The translations under genes and the position numbers were made by a program. A stretch of DNA of 64,000 nt from positions 1 through 64,000 of the forward strand of contig VEQL01000008.1 in NCBI GenBank assembly GCA_018883245.1, written 5' to 3'. Source of the stretch: Chthoniobacterales bacterium (GTDB taxonomy: Bacteria; Verrucomicrobiota; Verrucomicrobiia; Chthoniobacterales; JACTMZ01). Shown here in pieces: positions 45,418 through 61,401 of this stretch (position 1 is the stretch's first letter; each line of letters opens with the position of its first letter). A model generated the notes under the pieces. That model was not told where the DNA came from. It saw only the letters and a program-made list of their open reading frames with translations, and made no database searches.

Positions 45418-46509
45418 TCAACGGACGCGCAGGATCTTGCCCGACGCGGTGCGCGGAATTTCCCCGATCTGAACCGATACGGGGCATGCAAACGGCGGGA
45501 AAATGTCCGTGGCGGCCCTCGCTTGCCCGACTGCGACGGCATTCTCCGCAACAAGGCGCAGCGTGAAACCGTTGCGCTCGTCCGGGTCCGCCTGAACACA
45601 AACCGCACCGCCCGCAACCCGGGCCTGCAACGCACGCTCGAGCGCGGAGATATCGACCAGCTCACCGCGGATCTTCAGAAGATCGTCGGCCCTTCCAAGC
45701 ATCTTTAGCTGGCGTCCGCGCAAATCAACGCGATCACTGGTCCGAAACCACCCTTCGTTCTTGGGATCTTTCCAGCGTGTGGCGCCGCAATCATCGAAGA
45801 CCATCCAGCCTGTGAGCAACGAAGGGCCGCGCAACTCGAGCAGCCCGCCCTCGCTCACCCGCGCTTGGACGTGCGGCAGCAAAGGCAGCCACTCGAAATC
45901 AGCTGTTCCCGGATCAGCCGTGGCGACTTGCGAAGCGGCCTCGGTCAGTCCGTAACTCGGCAGCACGGGCCAGCCGAGCGATGCAGCCTTCGCGCGCAAG
46001 CTCTCGTCCAATGCACCGCCGCCGACCACCACAGCGCGCAAGCTCGCAGGTGCGCGCTGTTGCCGCTGCACGAGATCATGGACCTGTGCCGGCACCAGCG
46101 AGGAAAGCGTTGCGTGTCGCGACGAGGCGGACCGCACAAACTCCTCGGGATCCCAAGGGCCGAACTGTTGCCATTTCGCGCCGCTCAAAGCGGAACGGAC
46201 GACAATGCCAAGTCCTCCAACATGAAAAAGCGGCAGCGGGTTGATCCAAACATCGCCCGACAGCGCGCCCAGATGCGCATTGACCGCGCGCGCATTGGCC
46301 TCGAGAGCGGTGCGCGAAAGCGCGACGATTTTCAACGTTCCGCCCGTGCCCGAAGTCGCGAGCCAAATGTGGTCCGGCAGATCCGGAAAATCCGCTGCCA
46401 AGATCTCTGCGCGCCGTCCTGACGGCGTCCGCGGATTGAGCAGCAGCATGCTTCCCCTGCCCTCCCAAGACCGGACATCATCCGATAGCAAATCTTTCCC
46501 GCGCGGCAT
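45418..46509 (-). CDS. menE: AMP-forming acyl-CoA ligase, MenE (o-succinylbenzoate-CoA ligase)-like
   Basis: 363 residues from the ATG at 46509. ANL-superfamily motifs are present: the phosphate loop LATSGTGGTLKIVALSR, the GLTEAAS motif (SYGLTEAAS), the Asp in WFRTSDRV, and the C-terminal Lys in IPRTASGKILRVR. It is roughly 90 residues shorter at the N-terminus than E. coli MenE. It probably activates o-succinylbenzoate for menaquinone; another aromatic acid is possible. The nearby thioesterase fits the DHNA-CoA step. No other men genes are in the window. Confidence 0.75.
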   Translation of the reverse strand: MPRGKDLLSDDVRSWEGRGSMLLLNPRTPSGRRAEILAADFPDLPDHIWLATSGTGGTLKIVALSRTALEANARAVNAHLGALSGDVWINPLPLFHVGGLGIVVRSALSGAKWQQFGPWDPEEFVRSASSRHATLSSLVPAQVHDLVQRQQRAPASLRAVVVGGGALDESLRAKAASLGWPVLPSYGLTEAASQVATADPGTADFEWLPLLPHVQARVSEGGLLELRGPSLLTGWMVFDDCGATRWKDPKNEGWFRTSDRVDLRGRQLKMLGRADDLLKIRGELVDISALERALQARVAGGAVCVQADPDERNGFTLRLVAENAVAVGQARAATDIFPPFACPVSVQIGEIPRTASGKILRVR

Positions 46510-46649
46510 GGGCGAAGTTTCCGTGCCTGCCGGACAGTTCACAAGCGCGGCGCACGCCCGGTTTTTACTTGCCGGCTGCAAACGCGCTGGACAAATTGAA
46601 CTTCTTTCGCGGCTCCTCCGCCTTCGCAATGGAGCCGCCGCTGCCGTAA

Positions 46650-46724
46650 GCCAGGGTAGCTCAGCGGTAGAGCAGGGGACTCATAAGCCCTTGGTCGGGA
46701 GTTCGATTCTCCCCCCTGGCACCA
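46650..46724 (+). tRNA. tRNA-Met (anticodon CAT)
   Basis: 75 bases including an encoded CCA. The acceptor stem is GCCAGGG/CCCTGGC, the D arm GCTC-loop-GAGC, the anticodon loop CTCATAA and the T arm GGGAG-TTCGATT-CTCCC. G1-C72 pairing and the stem sequence argue against initiator tRNA. Elongator Met is most likely. A lysidine-modified tRNA-Ile with the same anticodon cannot be fully excluded. Position 31-39 of the anticodon stem reads A-G. Its 3' end is two bases from the end of the cyclase gene. Confidence 0.93.
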
Positions 46725-46726
46725 CG

Positions 46727-48829
46727 TCACTTGCGGGTCACGTGATAAAGCGGGAACGTGCCGAATCCTTTCGGCAGCGCCGTTTCGCCGGCGTATTCGA
46801 AGCGCACGCCCGGCACGTCCAAGGCCAGCGCCAGCGCGGCCATTGTGCGGCTGGCATAAACGTGGTTCACCGGCGTGACGGGTTCGATGCGCGCCGCGCG
46901 ATTGACCAGGCGACCGGCAACATCGTCACGCCCCGTGACGGGGTCTTTGAATTCCATCACCGGTCCGGCATCGAGCGAGATGCGCAGCCCGAGATCTTCG
47001 GGAAACCCGCGCCGCGTCCAATCGATCCCTGCCGTTGCATCGCGCAACTCGAGACCGAAACGGATCGCACCGGGCACATCACGGAACGCCATGAACAAAC
47101 CGTCTCCCGCCGTCTTCACCGTGAGCGTGTGCTCGCGGAAGGAATCCACGACGCCTGCCACGCATCCCAGAAAGTCACGGCAGAAAATGCGGAGTCGTTC
47201 CGCCTCGAGCCGGCTGTAACCCTTGGCATCCGCGCAGAGCAGCGCGCGAAAAGGCAAAGATTGCCCCGGAACCGCACCGCACTGCGCGGGCGAAGGCAGC
47301 CCGTGCGGCACGAGGTCCAACTCACCCGCCCGCAACAGCGCGAGCCCGCGGAAAAAAAGTTTGGTGAACACCGGCGTGGTCTCCTGCCCCGCGGCACGGA
47401 TTTCGTTCTGGCCGAGCACACGCGCGGCGCCGGCGAGAATCTTGTCGAGGAGTTCGCCTTGCGCCGCAGACAGGCGTTCGCGGAATTTGTCCAACGGCTC
47501 CTCCGTGCCGAGATGAAACTCGGCAGCGCGAGGGACAAGGTGCGCCGCGCGCTCCAACTGGCGTGCGTCATTGAGATAGAAAAAGACGATCGAGCCGTCG
47601 GCAGGCGGCGCATCCCCTTCCCCGTCGAGGCCGGCGACGTGCAGTCCCGGCAGCCGGAACCAGGACTCCACCTTCGCTTCCGGAAAGCCCGTGCGGCGTG
47701 CGGTCTCGAGCGCCTGGCGCCGCATGGACTGGAGCGGCCGCCATTGTCCTTTGAGGCCGTGAGCCGCGGCACTGTAGGCGGCGCCAGCACTTTTGCCGTC
47801 GTGCAAAAGCAAATGCGCCTCGCCGCGCGTGGCCTCCAACCAGGGATCGGCCGAACTTCCGGCGCGCGAAGATTCCGCGCGATCGCACAAGTCGAGCACT
47901 TCGCGCGCAAGAATCTTCGACTCTTCCGTGCGACCGGCCCATGCACCCAGCGTGGCGGCGTTGATGCCGAGGTAGTAGGCCGTCTCCGCGTCCTCCGGCT
48001 TGCCGCATGACGAAAAATTTTCGCGGGCCGCACGGTAGGCTTTTTCGTAGGTGGTTTTGGACCGCTCGAAGCAGACCCGCGCCTCATCCGGTTGCGTTGC
48101 GCGCAGTCCCTGCATTTTCGCGATGCGTCCGCGCAAGCCTTGAAGATCTCCGGTCACACCGCCGAGGTTCTCCAATTTCGCCAATTCCTGCGCGGCGCGC
48201 TCGAGGGCGCCGACTTCGACGAGGGACAAAACCTCCAGATACCGCAATGGTCCATCCTCGGGACACGGCCCGGAACCTGCCGAGGACTCACGGCGGGCGA
48301 GCGCCTGCGAGGCCATGTCGAAAACCATGAGAGGCCAACCTGCATCGGACGCGTGCCGCGCCAAGCGCAGCAGCAGCGCGGGATGTGCGGCCCAAAACTC
48401 CGCCGGCTTGCTGCGGCGCAGCGCATCCGCAGCCTCGAAAGTCAGCGTTCCTGCGTCGCGGAGCAGCATTTCTACGGCCTGAATTTCACCGGAGGCGGCA
48501 TCGGAGGCGGGAACTGCGGGGACAATCGTATACCCCTCGCCCAGGATCGTGCGCAGTGTTGTCAGCGCCGTGCCGCGATCGACATCTTTCTCCGCCTCGG
48601 GAAGATTGTCATAAGCAACAAGGTTCGGTGTCGTCTTGAGCTTCTCATCGCGCACGGGCCCGTAGCGCCAACCTTCCGCCATGCGCTGGCGCGCCCAACG
48701 CTCGTGAACCTCACCGGCCAGACGTTCGGTGAGGCCCGCAAGGAACGGGGGCAATTTGACCGACGCATTGCGGTCCGGAGCAGGAGCCCAGGGAGACGTG
48801 GAACTTTGGTCCGCCATCGACCCCGTCAT
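46727..48829 (-). CDS. RyR domain + TRAFs-binding/TPR-like module + class III nucleotidyl cyclase
   Basis: 700 residues from the ATG at 48829; TTG 48856 and ATG 48817 are alternatives. An N-terminal RyR-like domain (about 35-102) carries RWARQRMAEGWRYG and LVAYDNLPEAEKDVDR. A helical middle (about 115-460) has YYLGINAATLGAWAG and WLEATRGEAHLLL, motifs of the TRAFs-binding/TPR-S type. A class III cyclase domain spans about 525-700: metal Asp534 (LCADAKGYSRL), Lys572 and Asp576 (VKTAGDGLFMAF), Asn643 and Arg647 (LVNRAARI). All core catalytic residues are present, so it probably makes cAMP or cGMP. No signal peptide is seen. It is third in a likely operon with a lipoprotein and a TIR protein. 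Domain names are assigned from memory of their motifs. Confidence 0.8.
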   Translation of the reverse strand: MTGSMADQSSTSPWAPAPDRNASVKLPPFLAGLTERLAGEVHERWARQRMAEGWRYGPVRDEKLKTTPNLVAYDNLPEAEKDVDRGTALTTLRTILGEGYTIVPAVPASDAASGEIQAVEMLLRDAGTLTFEAADALRRSKPAEFWAAHPALLLRLARHASDAGWPLMVFDMASQALARRESSAGSGPCPEDGPLRYLEVLSLVEVGALERAAQELAKLENLGGVTGDLQGLRGRIAKMQGLRATQPDEARVCFERSKTTYEKAYRAARENFSSCGKPEDAETAYYLGINAATLGAWAGRTEESKILAREVLDLCDRAESSRAGSSADPWLEATRGEAHLLLHDGKSAGAAYSAAAHGLKGQWRPLQSMRRQALETARRTGFPEAKVESWFRLPGLHVAGLDGEGDAPPADGSIVFFYLNDARQLERAAHLVPRAAEFHLGTEEPLDKFRERLSAAQGELLDKILAGAARVLGQNEIRAAGQETTPVFTKLFFRGLALLRAGELDLVPHGLPSPAQCGAVPGQSLPFRALLCADAKGYSRLEAERLRIFCRDFLGCVAGVVDSFREHTLTVKTAGDGLFMAFRDVPGAIRFGLELRDATAGIDWTRRGFPEDLGLRISLDAGPVMEFKDPVTGRDDVAGRLVNRAARIEPVTPVNHVYASRTMAALALALDVPGVRFEYAGETALPKGFGTFPLYHVTRK

Positions 48830-48887
48830 GATCGGAGGACCTTGTCGGTCTGGCAAGCCGCAGGCAGCCGCGGAAACCGGCGCCCGC

Positions 48888-49430
48888 TTACAGGCTGCGG
48901 CCCGTGCCGACGTATTGCGCGCTCACCGTCTCGTAGCGGTTGACGGAGCCGACTCCCGGCGTTTTGCCGACATTGTAAACGTTATTGCCGACGATTTGCT
49001 CGGAGCGCGTGTCATAAACCATCACTTGACTCGTCCCTTTCGGGCTTTCAGCTGCCGCGACCGTGTCCACAGCGATGAACTGCGGTTTTTTCACTTTCGG
49101 CTTCGACGCACCGCCCGAAGACTGCCGTTTCTCCTTGGCCTCCATCTTGGCCATGGCGGCGCGCGCGTTGGCCAGAGCGATCTGCCGCTGGCGCGCCGTG
49201 GCTTGCTGCTTGGAAACCACGTATGCCGCCGCGCCGGCAAGAACGGCCGCGCCCGCAGTCACGGGGATGGTGATGGCGGAATCGACACCCGCCGCGCCCA
49301 AGGCGATGCCGGTGGCCGCGCCCGCAATACCGCCGAAGACTGCGGCATTTTCACCGGGGCTCATGTTCTGACAACCGGCGGCAAACATGGATCCGACCAC
49401 GACAACGGAGAGAATTTGGGAAGTTTTCAT
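48888..49430 (-). CDS. Glycine-zipper lipoprotein
   Basis: 180 residues. The signal peptide ends at a lipobox (FAAGC, Cys20), predicting a membrane lipoprotein. Residues of about 30-70 form a Gly/Ala-rich glycine-zipper segment (FGGIAGAATGIALGAAGVD, then AGAAVLAGAAAYVV) able to enter or cross a membrane. A basic helix (RQRQIALANARAAMAKMEAK) follows, then a C-terminal domain with SQVMVYDTRSEQIVGNNVYN. It sits between the TIR and cyclase genes on the same strand, 47 bases after the TIR stop. It may connect the pair to the envelope; this is inference from location only. Confidence 0.75.
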   Translation of the reverse strand: MKTSQILSVVVVGSMFAAGCQNMSPGENAAVFGGIAGAATGIALGAAGVDSAITIPVTAGAAVLAGAAAYVVSKQQATARQRQIALANARAAMAKMEAKEKRQSSGGASKPKVKKPQFIAVDTVAAAESPKGTSQVMVYDTRSEQIVGNNVYNVGKTPGVGSVNRYETVSAQYVGTGRSL

Positions 49431-49477
49431 ACTATTATTTTACGGAATCGTCCGAACGCGGCGGACCGGCGGTCAAG

Positions 49478-51070
49478 TCAGAAATCGACGCGGTTCTGTA
49501 TGCACCAATTCTGCGCGTCCGGGTTTCCCGCTTTCGCGGCTTTTTGATACCAGAACGTGGCTTCGGTTTTGTTCGGAGGCCCGATTGCGCCCGACTCGAG
49601 GGAAATGGCGAAGAACAGCATGCAAACCGTATCGCCCTTGCCGGCGCCGTCCTCCCACAATTGCACGGCCTTTTGTGGATCTTTCGACCCGGCCTCGCCG
49701 CTCATATACATCGCTCCAAGGCGGCCTTGTGCCTCGACGAATCCCTGCGCGGACGCCTCCTCGAAAAGTTGGAAAGCTTTTTTCGGATCCGCCGCCGGCA
49801 CTCCGACGCCATGCTGGTAGAGCCTGGCCAAGTGCGACTTGGCCGCGACATTCCCCAAGGCTGCCGCTTTTGAATACAGTTCGGCCGCTTGACGTTCGTC
49901 CATCGGCGTGCCCTTGCCCGTCAGCAAACACTCGGCATAGAGCATCATACCTTCGGGGAATCCGGCGTCGGCGGACCGCTTGAGCCACTTCGCTGCCTCG
50001 ACCATGTCGGCGGGTGCGCCGTCGCCGTTGGAAATCATGAGGCCCGCCTCGGCCATCGCGCGGGCCATTCCCTGCTCGGCGGCCTTTTTGAACATCGACA
50101 AACTTTCCTGCGGGTTGGTCTTGCGGAGAAGAATCCCCAGAAAATTCTGCGCGGCAGCGACGTTTGCATCGGCGACTGCGCGCACTGCGGCGACCAGACG
50201 TTGATCGCCGGCGCGATCACGCGAATCCTCCATCAGGCGCGCGATGGCGTTGGCCGCGCGCATGCGGATCGGAGGCTGCGAGGGATTGCGGGCAAGCATC
50301 GCACCGTAGGCCTCGAGTGCACCGACAAAATCCTCGTCTTCCTCGCAAGCGTCCGCCCTCGCGGCGAGATCCTCGGTTTGGACGGGCGGTGCGGCGGCCG
50401 TCGGCGCGGCGGTCGCGACCGGTGAAGCAGCGGGCGTCGCAGCGGTCGTTTCCGCGGGCGGCTTTGCTTCGTGTTGCGGACGCAAAAAGAAAAATGCGAT
50501 CGCTGCCGCCAAGACAAAAGCCGCGACCGCCGCGAGCCCGAGCACCACACCGCGGCGCGACCGGACGGATGAAGCGGAAGCTGCCCCGGCAGCAGCGTGG
50601 GCCAGGCCCTCCGGCGGACGGGCCTGCTGCCCCAGCGCCTCGCCGACTGCGTTCACCAAGTCGGTGATCCTCGATTGCCTCGGCGGGGAAAAAGCATCCA
50701 GCCAGTGACAGCTGCTGATGAACAGCTCCAAGTCCTCCGAGGGCTGCACCTTCTCGATCCGGAAGGGAATGATCGTCACGCGGTGTGACACCGCGCGCTC
50801 GATCTCGTTCATCACATGGCGCGAATTGTTTGTGTGGCGGGAGAAGACCAAGACCATGACTTTGGCCGCAGCGATGGATTTCACGATGGATCCGCCCCAG
50901 TTCTGGCCCGGCCGCACGTCGCGCGGCGCGATCCAGCAAGGAATCCCGCTCGATTCGAGGCCCGCACAAACGGCCTCCGCCACGTTTTTGTCCTCGGTGC
51001 AATAGCTGATGAATACCCGCGGATTTCGGAAATCCGCAGGGGCGGCGCTGGTGTTTTCCGGCTCGTTCAT
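49478..51070 (-). CDS. TIR-domain protein with membrane anchor and Sel1 repeats
   Basis: 530 residues from the ATG at 51070. The TIR domain (about 17-145) has RVFISYCTEDKNVAEAVCAG, GIPCWIAPRDVRPGQNWGG and LVFSRHTNNSRHVMNEIERA. Glu89 stands where NAD-cleaving TIR domains have their catalytic Glu. One membrane helix (about 174-196) is followed by an Ala/Pro linker. About five Sel1-like repeats follow, for example AAKSHLARLYQHGVGVPAADPKKAFQLFEE split around 430-460, reaching the C-terminus. The TIR part should face the cytoplasm and the repeats the periplasm. It heads the likely TIR-lipoprotein-cyclase operon. Roles could be NAD depletion, signal production or scaffolding. Confidence 0.85.
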   Translation of the reverse strand: MNEPENTSAAPADFRNPRVFISYCTEDKNVAEAVCAGLESSGIPCWIAPRDVRPGQNWGGSIVKSIAAAKVMVLVFSRHTNNSRHVMNEIERAVSHRVTIIPFRIEKVQPSEDLELFISSCHWLDAFSPPRQSRITDLVNAVGEALGQQARPPEGLAHAAAGAASASSVRSRRGVVLGLAAVAAFVLAAAIAFFFLRPQHEAKPPAETTAATPAASPVATAAPTAAAPPVQTEDLAARADACEEDEDFVGALEAYGAMLARNPSQPPIRMRAANAIARLMEDSRDRAGDQRLVAAVRAVADANVAAAQNFLGILLRKTNPQESLSMFKKAAEQGMARAMAEAGLMISNGDGAPADMVEAAKWLKRSADAGFPEGMMLYAECLLTGKGTPMDERQAAELYSKAAALGNVAAKSHLARLYQHGVGVPAADPKKAFQLFEEASAQGFVEAQGRLGAMYMSGEAGSKDPQKAVQLWEDGAGKGDTVCMLFFAISLESGAIGPPNKTEATFWYQKAAKAGNPDAQNWCIQNRVDF

Positions 51071-51246: not shown

Positions 51247-51507
51247 ATGGCCAACATCAAATCCGCCGCTAAACGCGCCCGCCAAGCCAAGGTTCGCACC
51301 GAACGCAACCGCAGCAACCTCAACGCGCTGAAGACCCTCTCCAAAAAGTCCCGCGCGGCACTGGGCACCAAAGACAAGTCTTCCGCCAAGGCGCAGATCT
51401 CCGCTTACGTTTCGGAACTCGATCGCGCAGTCAAGCAGGGCACAATCCACCGCAACGCGGCAAACCGCCGCAAAAGCGCCCTGGCCCGGAAACTCGCGGC
51501 CATCTGA
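51247..51507 (+). CDS. rpsT: 30S ribosomal protein S20
   Basis: 86 residues from the ATG at 51247. The N-terminus MANIKSAAKRARQAKVRTE and the downstream KGTIHRNAANRRKSALARKL-type segment (here QGTIHRNAANRRKSALAR) are diagnostic. It is a highly basic helical protein that binds 16S rRNA. It is usually transcribed alone, as seems the case here. It is divergent from the TIR gene, with 176 bases between that must hold both promoters. Confidence 0.97.
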   Translation: MANIKSAAKRARQAKVRTERNRSNLNALKTLSKKSRAALGTKDKSSAKAQISAYVSELDRAVKQGTIHRNAANRRKSALARKLAAI

Positions 51508-58381: not shown

Positions 58382-60610
58382 TTAAAGCAACCGGTCACCA
58401 CCCGCGCCGGCCGGAACGAACGCCTCGAACTTGGCGGCCAGATCCTCGAGCTTGGACAGATAGTATGCCGTGTTCTCGTCGCGCTGTTTGGGATTCCACT
58501 CTTCGAGCAGCCTCGCGCTCTCGTAAGCCTTCACCGTCTTCTTTGTGCCGGTGATGTAATAAGTCACACGGTCGCCCGCCTGCATCTTGCGCCCGCTTCG
58601 CAGCGCCAACTCGAAAGCAGCCGAGCGATTCCTCGACGAAGCCGCGATCTTCTTCTGGTAAGCTTCGAGCGAATCCTGCAGCGCCTCGGTTTTGACAAAC
58701 ATCTCCGCATCCCAACTGCGATCGCGCAGCGCTTTGGCGAACTCCGCGTGCATGGATGGAATCACCTCGGGTTTGCCCTCGAGCAACGCCCGCACCGCAC
58801 GCTCGATGAAGATCCGCTGGAATTTTTCCAGCCCGCGCGATTTCAAAGCCGCGCCCTTGATCGACAACTTTCCGTCCTCCGAAAGAAGCGCATAATTCTT
58901 CGCCTTGTAGCTGAACATCGCCGCATAACGCGCGTCGAATTCGACCTCGATGCCCTCGGGCAAAGTGGCCGCCAGTTCCCGGTAAAGACCGTGCCACGTC
59001 GCGTCCTTCGGCGGCGTGAAATAAATGCCGTCCGTGTCGATCTCGATGACGTCCGCCCCGCGCTGGCGCAACCAATCCACCATCCCGCGCAGCAACTCTC
59101 GTCCTTTCGCCGTGACCGCCGCAGCAGCCTCGAAATCGGCGAAATTTCCCTGCGCAAAGCCAAGATATCCGTAAAAGCTGTTGATGAGGATTTTGAAGGT
59201 TCCCTGCAACGCGTCGAGGTGCGCTTTCTGCGCGCCCTTGGCCGAACGCATGGCCGCCTTTGCTTCAAGCCGGAACTTGCGCAACCGCGCCAGCATCTCG
59301 CCGAAGACCCCGAGCGTGTCCGCCTTCGGAAAAAGCCCGAACGAAAGCATGACGGACGGATAGAGCGAGGCAATGTCGCAATGCCACACATCACGCGCCA
59401 CGCCGGTGAAAAAAATGTCAGTGTATCCACCCTCGAACCGGCGCACCTCGGGCAATGACGGGACCGACTGTCCTTGGCGCAGGTATTCGCGCAAAAACAG
59501 GCTGTTGATCTTTGTTGCGTTCCCGCGAATGACCACATCCTGGTAGTTGTAGGGAAAGATCGCCGTCTGCGTGAACCACGCCGGACTCAACGCCGCGGAC
59601 AGCGCCCGAGTCTCGCGCACGTCTTGCAGGGCATACTGCGTGAATGTCTCGCGCTTCTTGTCATGCGCCTCCGTGATCTCGCGTGCACCGAGCTCGATCC
59701 GGTCATCTTCCGCCACGCCGAAATGACGCGCGGCAGCTTTGAGTCCGAAACTTTCCAGCTCGCGCGCTCCCACATCATGGAATTGGACGAGAAACAGCGT
59801 GTCCACAATGTGGCGTCCGTGGATCTCGAACTTGCGGTATTGGATCAGCCTCTCGGCGATCTGCAGCCTCGACGGATGCGACCTCAGCGCGCTGCCGTCG
59901 CGTCCAAGGTCCAGCTTCACCTTGTGCTTGCGCGCCCGCGTCTCGAGATAGGGCAGGTCGAATTTGAATATGTTGTGCCCCTCGATGACATCCGGATCGC
60001 GCTGCCGCACCAAAGCGACGAATTTTTCCAGCACCTCTTTTTCCTGCGCTTCGTCCGAAGGATCATCCACCACGAGGATCTCCTCCCATCCCGAACTGTC
60101 GCTCAGCGAAATGGCCAACAGCGGGTCTTTGGCCGAATCGGACATGACACCATCCGCGCCGGTGAATGTCTCGATGTCCACCTGCATCCTACGCAGATCC
60201 TGGAACGCCATGCCTTTGAACAATGTCCGCCCGCTCTGCAGCAGGTATTGGTGCGCGAGATCGTTCAGCGCGAACACTTGCTTTTTGTATGCGGCCTTCG
60301 CTGTGGAAAACTGTGCAGCACTGTCAAAGGCGACGGTGAAACGAAAAGCATTTTTGCCGGCCAATTCCCTCGAATTTCCCGGCAACGGCTCCGTGGCCCA
60401 GGCGAACGGCTTGTGCGTTGCCTCCTCGACCGTCGTTTTATCCCCGTCGCGCCGGTAAATGTGAACATGGTCCGGAGCGGCAAATTCGACCGCCACGATC
60501 CCCTCTGTCGGATCGACACCAAAAAGCACGGGATCGAGTTCAAGCAATGAAACCGGAGACATATCGGCCACAACCCGGCGATCATAGCTCTGCGCGGAAG
60601 CATGGACCAC
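58382..60610 (-). CDS. polB: Family B DNA polymerase (Pol II-like)
   Basis: About 742 residues from GTG 60610. An ATG at 60562 and a TTG at 60634 are alternatives; the upstream part VVHASAQSYDRR looks coding. Exonuclease motifs: ExoI VDIETFTG, ExoII IEGHNIFKFDLPYL, ExoIII YALQDVRETRAL. Polymerase motifs: A HCDIASLYPSVMLSF, B LQGTFKILINSFYGYLGFA, C VIEIDTDGIYF. All catalytic Asp residues are present, so it should polymerise with proofreading. Pol II acts in repair and lesion bypass in other bacteria. It lies 50 bases downstream of kdsB. Confidence 0.92.
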   Translation of the reverse strand: MVHASAQSYDRRVVADMSPVSLLELDPVLFGVDPTEGIVAVEFAAPDHVHIYRRDGDKTTVEEATHKPFAWATEPLPGNSRELAGKNAFRFTVAFDSAAQFSTAKAAYKKQVFALNDLAHQYLLQSGRTLFKGMAFQDLRRMQVDIETFTGADGVMSDSAKDPLLAISLSDSSGWEEILVVDDPSDEAQEKEVLEKFVALVRQRDPDVIEGHNIFKFDLPYLETRARKHKVKLDLGRDGSALRSHPSRLQIAERLIQYRKFEIHGRHIVDTLFLVQFHDVGARELESFGLKAAARHFGVAEDDRIELGAREITEAHDKKRETFTQYALQDVRETRALSAALSPAWFTQTAIFPYNYQDVVIRGNATKINSLFLREYLRQGQSVPSLPEVRRFEGGYTDIFFTGVARDVWHCDIASLYPSVMLSFGLFPKADTLGVFGEMLARLRKFRLEAKAAMRSAKGAQKAHLDALQGTFKILINSFYGYLGFAQGNFADFEAAAAVTAKGRELLRGMVDWLRQRGADVIEIDTDGIYFTPPKDATWHGLYRELAATLPEGIEVEFDARYAAMFSYKAKNYALLSEDGKLSIKGAALKSRGLEKFQRIFIERAVRALLEGKPEVIPSMHAEFAKALRDRSWDAEMFVKTEALQDSLEAYQKKIAASSRNRSAAFELALRSGRKMQAGDRVTYYITGTKKTVKAYESARLLEEWNPKQRDENTAYYLSKLEDLAAKFEAFVPAGAGGDRLL

Positions 60611-60660
60611 AAAGACTTCGGCGGAAGGATGCAAAACACATCCCGGCGCCTCCGGGCCGG

Positions 60661-61401
60661 TCAGCGTGATGCCCGGCGCAAAGCGCGCTCCGCTTTGGCC
60701 ACGTCGTCGGGCGCATCGACGCCGACCGAACCATGCCGCACCACGATCACTCCGATGGGAACGCCGTGTTCCAAGGCGCGCAACTGCTCGAGCTTTTCCG
60801 CTTTCTCCAGCGGCGTGGGCTTCCATTTCACGAAATCGAGCAAGACCTTGCGCCGGTAGCCATAGATGCCTTGATGGCGGAGATATCTGACCCCTCCGCG
60901 CCCGTCGCGGTCATGAGGAATCACGCTGCGCGAAAAATAAAGCGCGCGTCCGGAGAGATCGGTCACCACCTTGACCACGTTGGGATTGTGCACATCGGCG
61001 GGATCCGTGACGGGATTCGCTGCCGTCACCATTCCGAGCGCCGGATCGGCCTGCAACGCACGCGCCAATCGGTCGATGGTGGACGGCGAAATATCGGGTT
61101 CGTCGCCTTGGACGTTCAATATGACCGGCGAGGATTTGAGCTTCCTTGCCACTTCAGCGAGGCGGTCGGTGCCCGTCGGGTGTCTGGGCGAGGTCAGCGC
61201 CACCTCCGCGCCGAAATCGAACGCGGCCTCGGCAATGCGCATATCGTCGGTGGCGATTATGACATGATCGACACACTTGGCCCGGCGGGCGCGTTCCCAC
61301 ACATGCTGCACGAGAGGTTTGCCATGCAACTCGACCAGGGGCTTGCCGGGGAAGCGCGTCGAGGCCCAACGCGCGGGGATGATCGCTGTCACCGCGGACA
61401 T
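60661..61401 (-). CDS. kdsB: 3-deoxy-manno-octulosonate (Kdo) cytidylyltransferase
   Basis: 246 residues from the ATG at 61401; the longer frame to 61566 lies inside gmhB. KdsB activates Kdo as CMP-Kdo for LPS. The N-terminus TAIIPARWASTRFPGKPLVE, the VIIATDD motif, TSPRHPTGTDRLAEV, NVQGDEPDI and YLRHQGIYGYRR are all family signatures. It overlaps gmhB by 13 bases. Together with the heptose enzymes it shows an LPS inner core with Kdo and heptose. Confidence 0.95.
   Translation of the reverse strand: MSAVTAIIPARWASTRFPGKPLVELHGKPLVQHVWERARRAKCVDHVIIATDDMRIAEAAFDFGAEVALTSPRHPTGTDRLAEVARKLKSSPVILNVQGDEPDISPSTIDRLARALQADPALGMVTAANPVTDPADVHNPNVVKVVTDLSGRALYFSRSVIPHDRDGRGGVRYLRHQGIYGYRRKVLLDFVKWKPTPLEKAEKLEQLRALEHGVPIGVIVVRHGSVGVDAPDDVAKAERALRRASR

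Follow-up and report, generated by a model that had tools for sequence, protein, structure and literature searches.

Why should a membrane-bound TIR protein, a small lipoprotein and a nucleotidyl cyclase carrying an RyR domain lie packed together beside a tRNA gene, and if they work together, in which direction does the signal run? The question is raised by a locus of a Chthoniobacterales bacterium (assembly GCA_018883245.1, source genome size 2.9 Mb) in the first 64,000 nucleotides of contig VEQL01000008.1, the stretch we refer to as the window. Our results show that the three genes recur together at unrelated sites in the genus, and that TIR genes and RyR/TPR-S cyclase genes are linked beyond it. 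We propose, tentatively and with somewhat less than even confidence, that the cassette is a horizontally acquired, membrane-linked relay in which the TIR protein would make an ADP-ribose-type signal, the RyR domain would sense it and the cyclase would relay it.

Organization of the locus

Three minus-strand open reading frames occupy positions 46727-51070, separated by 47 and 58 bp, in the order TIR-transmembrane-Sel1 protein, glycine-zipper lipoprotein and RyR-TPR-S-class III cyclase. The stop of the cyclase gene is located 2 bp from the 3' end of tRNA-Met. The gene positions, the gaps and this spacing had been given in a preliminary description made from the sequence alone, and were exact when re-checked. 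Its domain names TIR, Sel1, RyR and cyclase were also borne out, and the region that it called TRAFs-binding is better named TPR-S (PF20308). The features are as follows.

49478..51070, minus strand: gene 1, TIR-transmembrane-TPR/Sel1 protein, 530 residues (Pfam, transmembrane prediction, AlphaFold2 model with Foldseek)
50687..51016, minus strand: TIR domain of gene 1, residues 19-128, putative catalytic Glu89 (Pfam TIR_2 and alignment)
49502..50122, minus strand: Sel1 repeats of gene 1 (Pfam and homology to kinase-transmembrane-Sel1 proteins)
48888..49430, minus strand: gene 2, candidate glycine-zipper lipoprotein, 180 residues (lipobox and zipper by inspection; homologues next to Sel1 genes)
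46727..48829, minus strand: gene 3, RyR-TPR-S-class III nucleotidyl cyclase, 700 residues (Pfam, residues, structure match)
48524..48790, minus strand: RyR domain of gene 3 (Pfam and ligand-pocket residues H42, W45, D84 and T67)
46739..47251, minus strand: cyclase catalytic domain of gene 3 (D534/D576, K572/D636, N643/R647)
46650..46724, plus strand: tRNA-Met, left edge of the insertion
51247..51507, plus strand: rpsT (S20), right edge of the insertion
45418..46629, minus strand: menE-like AMP-binding ligase, found to the left of tRNA-Met as a conserved neighbour within the genus

Recurrence in the genus and insertion at tRNA-Met

Within the genus, the trio was found in two gene orders and at three sites that are unrelated to each other. 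Genome G008 has TIR-Sel1, lipoprotein and cyclase in the same order as the window, and G004 has the cyclase first, followed by TIR-Sel1 and the lipoprotein. Its reappearance at unrelated sites in these two genomes makes the grouping more than chance, and the preliminary view of the three genes as one locus stands. The cyclase is present in four of 11 genus genomes and the TIR protein in three; the exact trio with the lipoprotein also occurs in 3/11, and was seen inside the genus only. No cyclase and no full TIR-Sel1 protein were found in the remaining seven genomes. When identities to G004 and G008 were compared, the ranking for the cyclase differed from that for the TIR protein and the lipoprotein, so that the cassette looks like two modules. 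Searches with short peptide patterns of a single protein found no close relatives; an alignment query gave three relatives, the nearest named homologues being Chthoniobacterales metagenome-assembled genomes.

In five genomes of the same genus (G002, G003, G006, G008 and G010) a menE-like ligase gene, tRNA-Met and rpsT follow each other, with rpsT starting ~18-21 nt past the tRNA gene. In the window 4.5 kb lie between the same tRNA-Met and rpsT, holding just the three genes. Since rpsT directly follows tRNA-Met in these five relatives, the cassette was most likely inserted at this site, and their empty sites bear out the suggestion that the tRNA gene marks acquired DNA. G008 has the empty site, yet carries the cassette elsewhere (G008:C5). 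Two signs of acquisition were looked for and rejected: classical tRNA integration, as the 3' end of tRNA-Met is not repeated anywhere in the window and the cassette has no integrase, and a foreign base composition, the cassette genes having a GC content of 62-65% compared with 61.7% for the window.

A TIR domain in the place of a kinase

The gene 1 protein matched TIR_2 at 2.5e-22 (residues 19-128) and five Sel1 repeats at 4.5e-34 in Pfam, and has a single strong transmembrane segment at residues 171-199. The basic motif RSRR precedes this segment on the TIR side and a Pro/Ala/Thr-rich linker follows it, and the predicted topology is therefore a cytosolic TIR domain and an extracytoplasmic Sel1 solenoid. 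The putative catalytic Glu, E89, was invariant across six aligned TIR domains, which gives gene 1 the two sequence marks of a candidate TIR NADase, the domain and the Glu. Apart from the TIR domain, the transmembrane segment and the TPR/Sel1 repeats, Pfam identified nothing in the protein, and specifically no cyclic-nucleotide-binding domain (CNBD). Foldseek searches with the AlphaFold2 model (predicted local distance difference test, pLDDT, 77) gave Sel1 proteins. A second TIR protein of the same genome (L104:6537-7694, on G000:C18), with one transmembrane segment, a coiled coil and an SH3-like end, is another membrane TIR protein with a likely extracytoplasmic domain.

The transmembrane-Sel1 half is ~31-38% identical to the C-terminal half of ~850-1050-residue proteins from other families of the order, and in 4/4 such proteins checked by Pfam (G012, G026, G029 and G037) a Ser/Thr protein kinase is N-terminal to it. 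Gene 2 had no family above cut-off in Pfam or NCBIfam, and by inspection encodes a lipobox (FAAGC) and a glycine zipper, i.e. a glycine-rich hydrophobic stretch. A homologue of this lipoprotein lies at most ~315 bp from the Sel1 gene in G012, G029, G031, G037, G052 and G053. The Chthoniobacterales pair and the cassette accordingly share a homologous transmembrane-Sel1 half and an adjacent homologous lipoprotein, and differ in that the pair has a protein kinase and the cassette a TIR domain. By this homology, the membrane half derives from an order-wide kinase-transmembrane-Sel1 and lipoprotein pair in which TIR has replaced the kinase. Standing where the kinase did, on the cytosolic side of a sensor built from Sel1 and the lipoprotein, TIR probably serves as the output of an envelope sensor or makes its signal. 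The lipoprotein is probably a dedicated partner of the Sel1 ectodomain. A distant paralogue of the lipoprotein (37-46% identical), found in one copy in nearly all genus genomes, is in the window genome located at G000:C13:16429-16851 and has no Sel1 neighbour there.

An RyR domain on a class III cyclase

In the gene 3 protein Pfam identified RyR at 1.5e-22 (residues 14-102) and TPR-S at 2.3e-8, the latter with 35 bits against a cut-off of 27.6. Guanylate_cyc was found at an E-value of 0.012, which is under the Pfam cut-off. The class III cyclase assignment is nevertheless secure, because relatives pass the cut-off, the catalytic positions are conserved and the best match in the PDB of the AlphaFold model (Foldseek) was the Rv1900c adenylyl cyclase domain. 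The model is modest (pLDDT 67, predicted template modelling score 0.48) and served for fold recognition only, not for the RyR pocket. In class III cyclases the residues corresponding to D534 and D576 bind metal, K572 and D636 form the adenine-type (ATP-using) pair, and N643 and R647 act on the transition state. All six are kept with canonical spacing in four full-length homologues (51-56% identical), so that gene 3 has the two metal Asp residues and the transition-state Asn and Arg of a class III cyclase. In the TPR-S-cyclase relatives L040:8167-10338, L044:6876-9476 and L047:6209-8833 the stretch between TPR-S and the cyclase looks SLOG-like by eye; it is degenerate in the window protein, for which this reading by eye does not establish a SLOG domain.

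The RyR domain matches animal RyR repeats and the bacterial structure 3NRT. According to a 2026 preprint (PMC13232231), TIR-made 2'/3' cyclic ADP-ribose (cADPR) is bound or cleaved by RyR domains (PF02026) of phages; the phage protein RyDEP contacts cADPR by H75, W78, H100 and D117, H100 being the phosphate contact. Three of these four are kept in the window RyR domain, which belongs to the same family, as H42, W45 and D84 (for H75, W78 and D117). Unlike RyDEP, the window domain belongs to the host, forms part of a cyclase protein and has a TIR gene as a neighbour, and its binding is a prediction; the passages of the preprint consulted hold no discussion of host RyR-cyclase or RyR-TIR loci.

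RyR-TIR and RyR-cyclase linkage outside the genus

RyR and TPR-S-cyclase were found together in four arrangements. RyR is fused N-terminally in the window genus and C-terminally in G014, G036 and G044 (Pfam); in G046 a separate RyR gene lies beside the cyclase together with an nSTAND1 gene, and on a Priestia plasmid a separate RyR gene of 94 residues begins 16 bp after the cyclase. The row on this plasmid starts with a PycTM effector, followed by two unknown genes, cyclase-TPR-S and RyR, and a TIR gene is nearby. A counterpart of the window came from another family of the phylum (G426), where RyR (96 residues), TPR-S-cyclase and TIR-TPR genes are co-directional with gaps of 16 and 19 bp, and the cyclase catalytic domain is 44% identical to that of the window. 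From its domains, this operon is the window's functional trio in an independent and different architecture.

Of 289 genomes sampled from the phylum, 16 have RyR. In seven of the 16, RyR was located <3 kb from TIR_2, compared with 0.1 expected under uniform placement (P ~4e-13), and <1 kb in three (P ~5e-6), values in which uniform placement overstates the significance because defence genes cluster. The one control family, N6_Mtase, is commoner in the same genomes and was near RyR in 0/16. Co-occurrence beyond close relatives, the check that the preliminary description had proposed, was observed for TIR and the RyR/TPR-S cyclase (G426 and the phylum statistics); it did not extend to the exact trio.

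Other RyR proteins also adjoin TIR genes. A TrkA_N-RyR gene has a TIR gene (TIR-TPR or TIR-NPHP3-TPR) downstream in G431 (L131) and G467 (L134), possibly an RyR-gated channel or NAD-sensing system, and an AAA-RyR gene adjoins a TIR-WD40 gene in G292. G442 (L130) also encodes a TrkA_N-RyR protein. Near AAA-RyR or TrkA_N-RyR genes we observed RelA/SpoT-RyR fusions, in which RyR is attached to a (p)ppGpp-synthetase-like domain (L122:4126-6783 in G292 and L125:8067-10763 in G327). At L128:6648-10879 (G454) a gene for a putative membrane protein of 722 residues stands between an RyR gene and a TIR gene, and the only other TIR of that genome is 2.4 kb away.

Direction of the signal

Starting from what the sequence offers, that is the domains, the catalytic residues, the insertion, the recurrence, the replacement of kinase by TIR, and the RyR-TIR and RyR-cyclase linkage, we infer a TIR activity, a ligand, a signal direction, a product and a purpose. 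The Sel1 ectodomain and the lipoprotein would sense an event at the envelope and thereby activate the cytosolic TIR domain, which would turn nicotinamide adenine dinucleotide (NAD+) into an ADP-ribose-type signal, either a cADPR isomer or ADP-ribose. The RyR domain of the cyclase would bind this signal, which the TPR-S region would then hand on to the class III catalytic domain. The resulting cyclic mononucleotide, predicted to be cyclic AMP (cAMP), would then alter cell physiology, perhaps as an anti-phage or stress defence. TIR is placed upstream because its protein has no CNBD, and because the membrane/Sel1 half belongs to a kind of receptor module found joined to a kinase in other proteins. 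The idea of a sensor-signal-effector pair is thus kept as regards the TIR-cyclase linkage and changed in its direction, from simply cyclase to TIR into TIR upstream with RyR as the reader. A defence role is plausible because of the mobility, the patchiness and the company of the relatives.

A wider proposal, possible in our view and held with less assurance than the relay itself, is a two-messenger relay via a transmembrane TIR receptor, in which RyR would be a general receptor for TIR signals on cyclase, TrkA/channel, AAA and RelA/SpoT outputs. The architecture, with an extracytoplasmic repeat domain, a transmembrane segment and a cytosolic TIR domain, is reminiscent of Toll-like receptors.

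Besides the limits of the placement statistics given above, several observations weigh against the relay. No TIR is close to the C-fused RyR-cyclases of the order (G014, G036, G039, G044 and G052), and the cyclase of G009 is solitary with no TIR nearby, in a genome that is 65% complete. The cassette has no cyclic-nucleotide receptor. No PADLOC system was identified in or beside it, nor were defence genes among the flanks tested. Where RyDEP contacts phosphate by His100, each of the four genus members has Thr67, and ligand binding by the window RyR may therefore differ. Finally, the base-selecting positions differ among distant members of the cyclase family, with Asn, Glu and other residues there, and the product may therefore vary across the family.

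Alternative explanations and known systems

The chief alternative, a signal in the reverse direction as in Pycsar, is in our judgement unlikely. RyR/TPR-S would then sense infection or a nucleotide change, and the cyclic mononucleotide would activate TIR, with NAD+ depletion and growth arrest as the outcome. Pycsar systems consist of class III cyclases with transmembrane or TIR effectors (PMC11224242), a likeness that the window shares by its cyclase and TIR genes and the related Priestia cassette by the PycTM effector that heads its row; a relative in G018 also matches PycC of PADLOC weakly (1.4e-4). However, PycTIR is defined by an N-terminal CNBD through which it binds the messenger (PMC11224242), and the window TIR has none, while its Sel1 half is predicted to be outside the cytosol. 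The window cyclase matched no PycC model in PADLOC, has the ATP-type pair K572/D636 and carries RyR and TPR-S in addition. The Pycsar messenger is cCMP or cUMP.

In Thoeris, the TIR protein ThsB makes a cADPR isomer that is read by an effector with a SLOG, macro or other domain. The cassette is similar in having a TIR domain with a putative catalytic Glu next to a protein whose RyR family is able to bind cADPR isomers, and differs in that a TPR-S cyclase carrying RyR, and not ThsA, would be the reader, and that the TIR protein is a Sel1 protein with one transmembrane segment. The window TIR matched ThsB models weakly (1.5e-4), and no ThsA family was found in the cassette by Pfam/NCBIfam or PADLOC, the RyR-cyclase being in that position. 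Assignment of the cassette to Pycsar or Thoeris was therefore rejected on the defining features tested. A comparative-genomics study from 2015 reportedly predicted nucleotide-centric conflict systems with TIR, SLOG, TPR-S and RyR domains; the cassette draws on the same set of domains and follows a similar general scheme. TIR systems with nucleotide signals, immunity by class III cyclases and RyR/TPR-S in predicted conflict systems are known kinds already. The literature searched, of which the 2015 study was not part, held no description of the trio or of a relay from TIR to an RyR-cyclase.

The cassette could also serve envelope-stress regulation and not defence, with TIR in the kinase's place in a Sel1/lipoprotein cell-wall sensor and cAMP passing to ordinary gene control. 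The pair of kinase-Sel1 protein and lipoprotein occurs widely in the order and has a housekeeping look, the flanking genes are ordinary and PADLOC identified no system. We consider this improbable, as the patchy distribution (cyclase 4/11, TIR 3/11), the tRNA insertion, the differing sites between species and the PycTM and nSTAND1 genes next to RyR partners rather have the look of defence cargo.

Less probable again is that RyR acts as an off-switch, degrading or sequestering the TIR signal in the manner of RyDEP to limit toxicity, with the cyclase answering another cue via TPR-S. The window RyR has H42 and D84 in the positions of the RyDEP catalytic pair H75/D117, and other phage relatives tested bind without cleaving and act as sponges; however, the same residues are also found in animal RyRs and non-cleaving homologues (PMC13232231). 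RyR is moreover fused to modules of the cyclase, TrkA_N, AAA and RelA/SpoT types, which fits a sensor better than a sink. That the three genes merely travel together without working together, as the solitary cyclase in G009 and the different identity rankings for G004 and G008 might suggest, is very improbable given that the trio has stayed together in two gene orders and at three sites, all different, and that G426 has an RyR/cyclase/TIR operon of another architecture.

Implications and further observations

Binding of TIR-made cADPR by phage RyR domains has only just been shown, and the linkage described here suggests that bacterial RyR domains are receptors for those signals, linked to outputs of other kinds. 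A relay between NAD-derived and cyclic-nucleotide messengers is now directly testable. If true, it would join NAD-derived and cyclic mononucleotide immune signals in one pathway, add a new class of reader to TIR immunity, give a reason for phage RyR sponges and provide a bacterial counterpart for a domain of animal calcium-release channels.

Two phage contigs from human fecal samples (MT836850.1, 1162-1428; MT837259.1, 940-1206) encode RyR domains 42-48% identical to that of the window, possibly sponges against such systems. Elsewhere in the window, an open reading frame of 814 residues at 58382-60826 on the minus strand matches the PADLOC model HEase at 4e-27.

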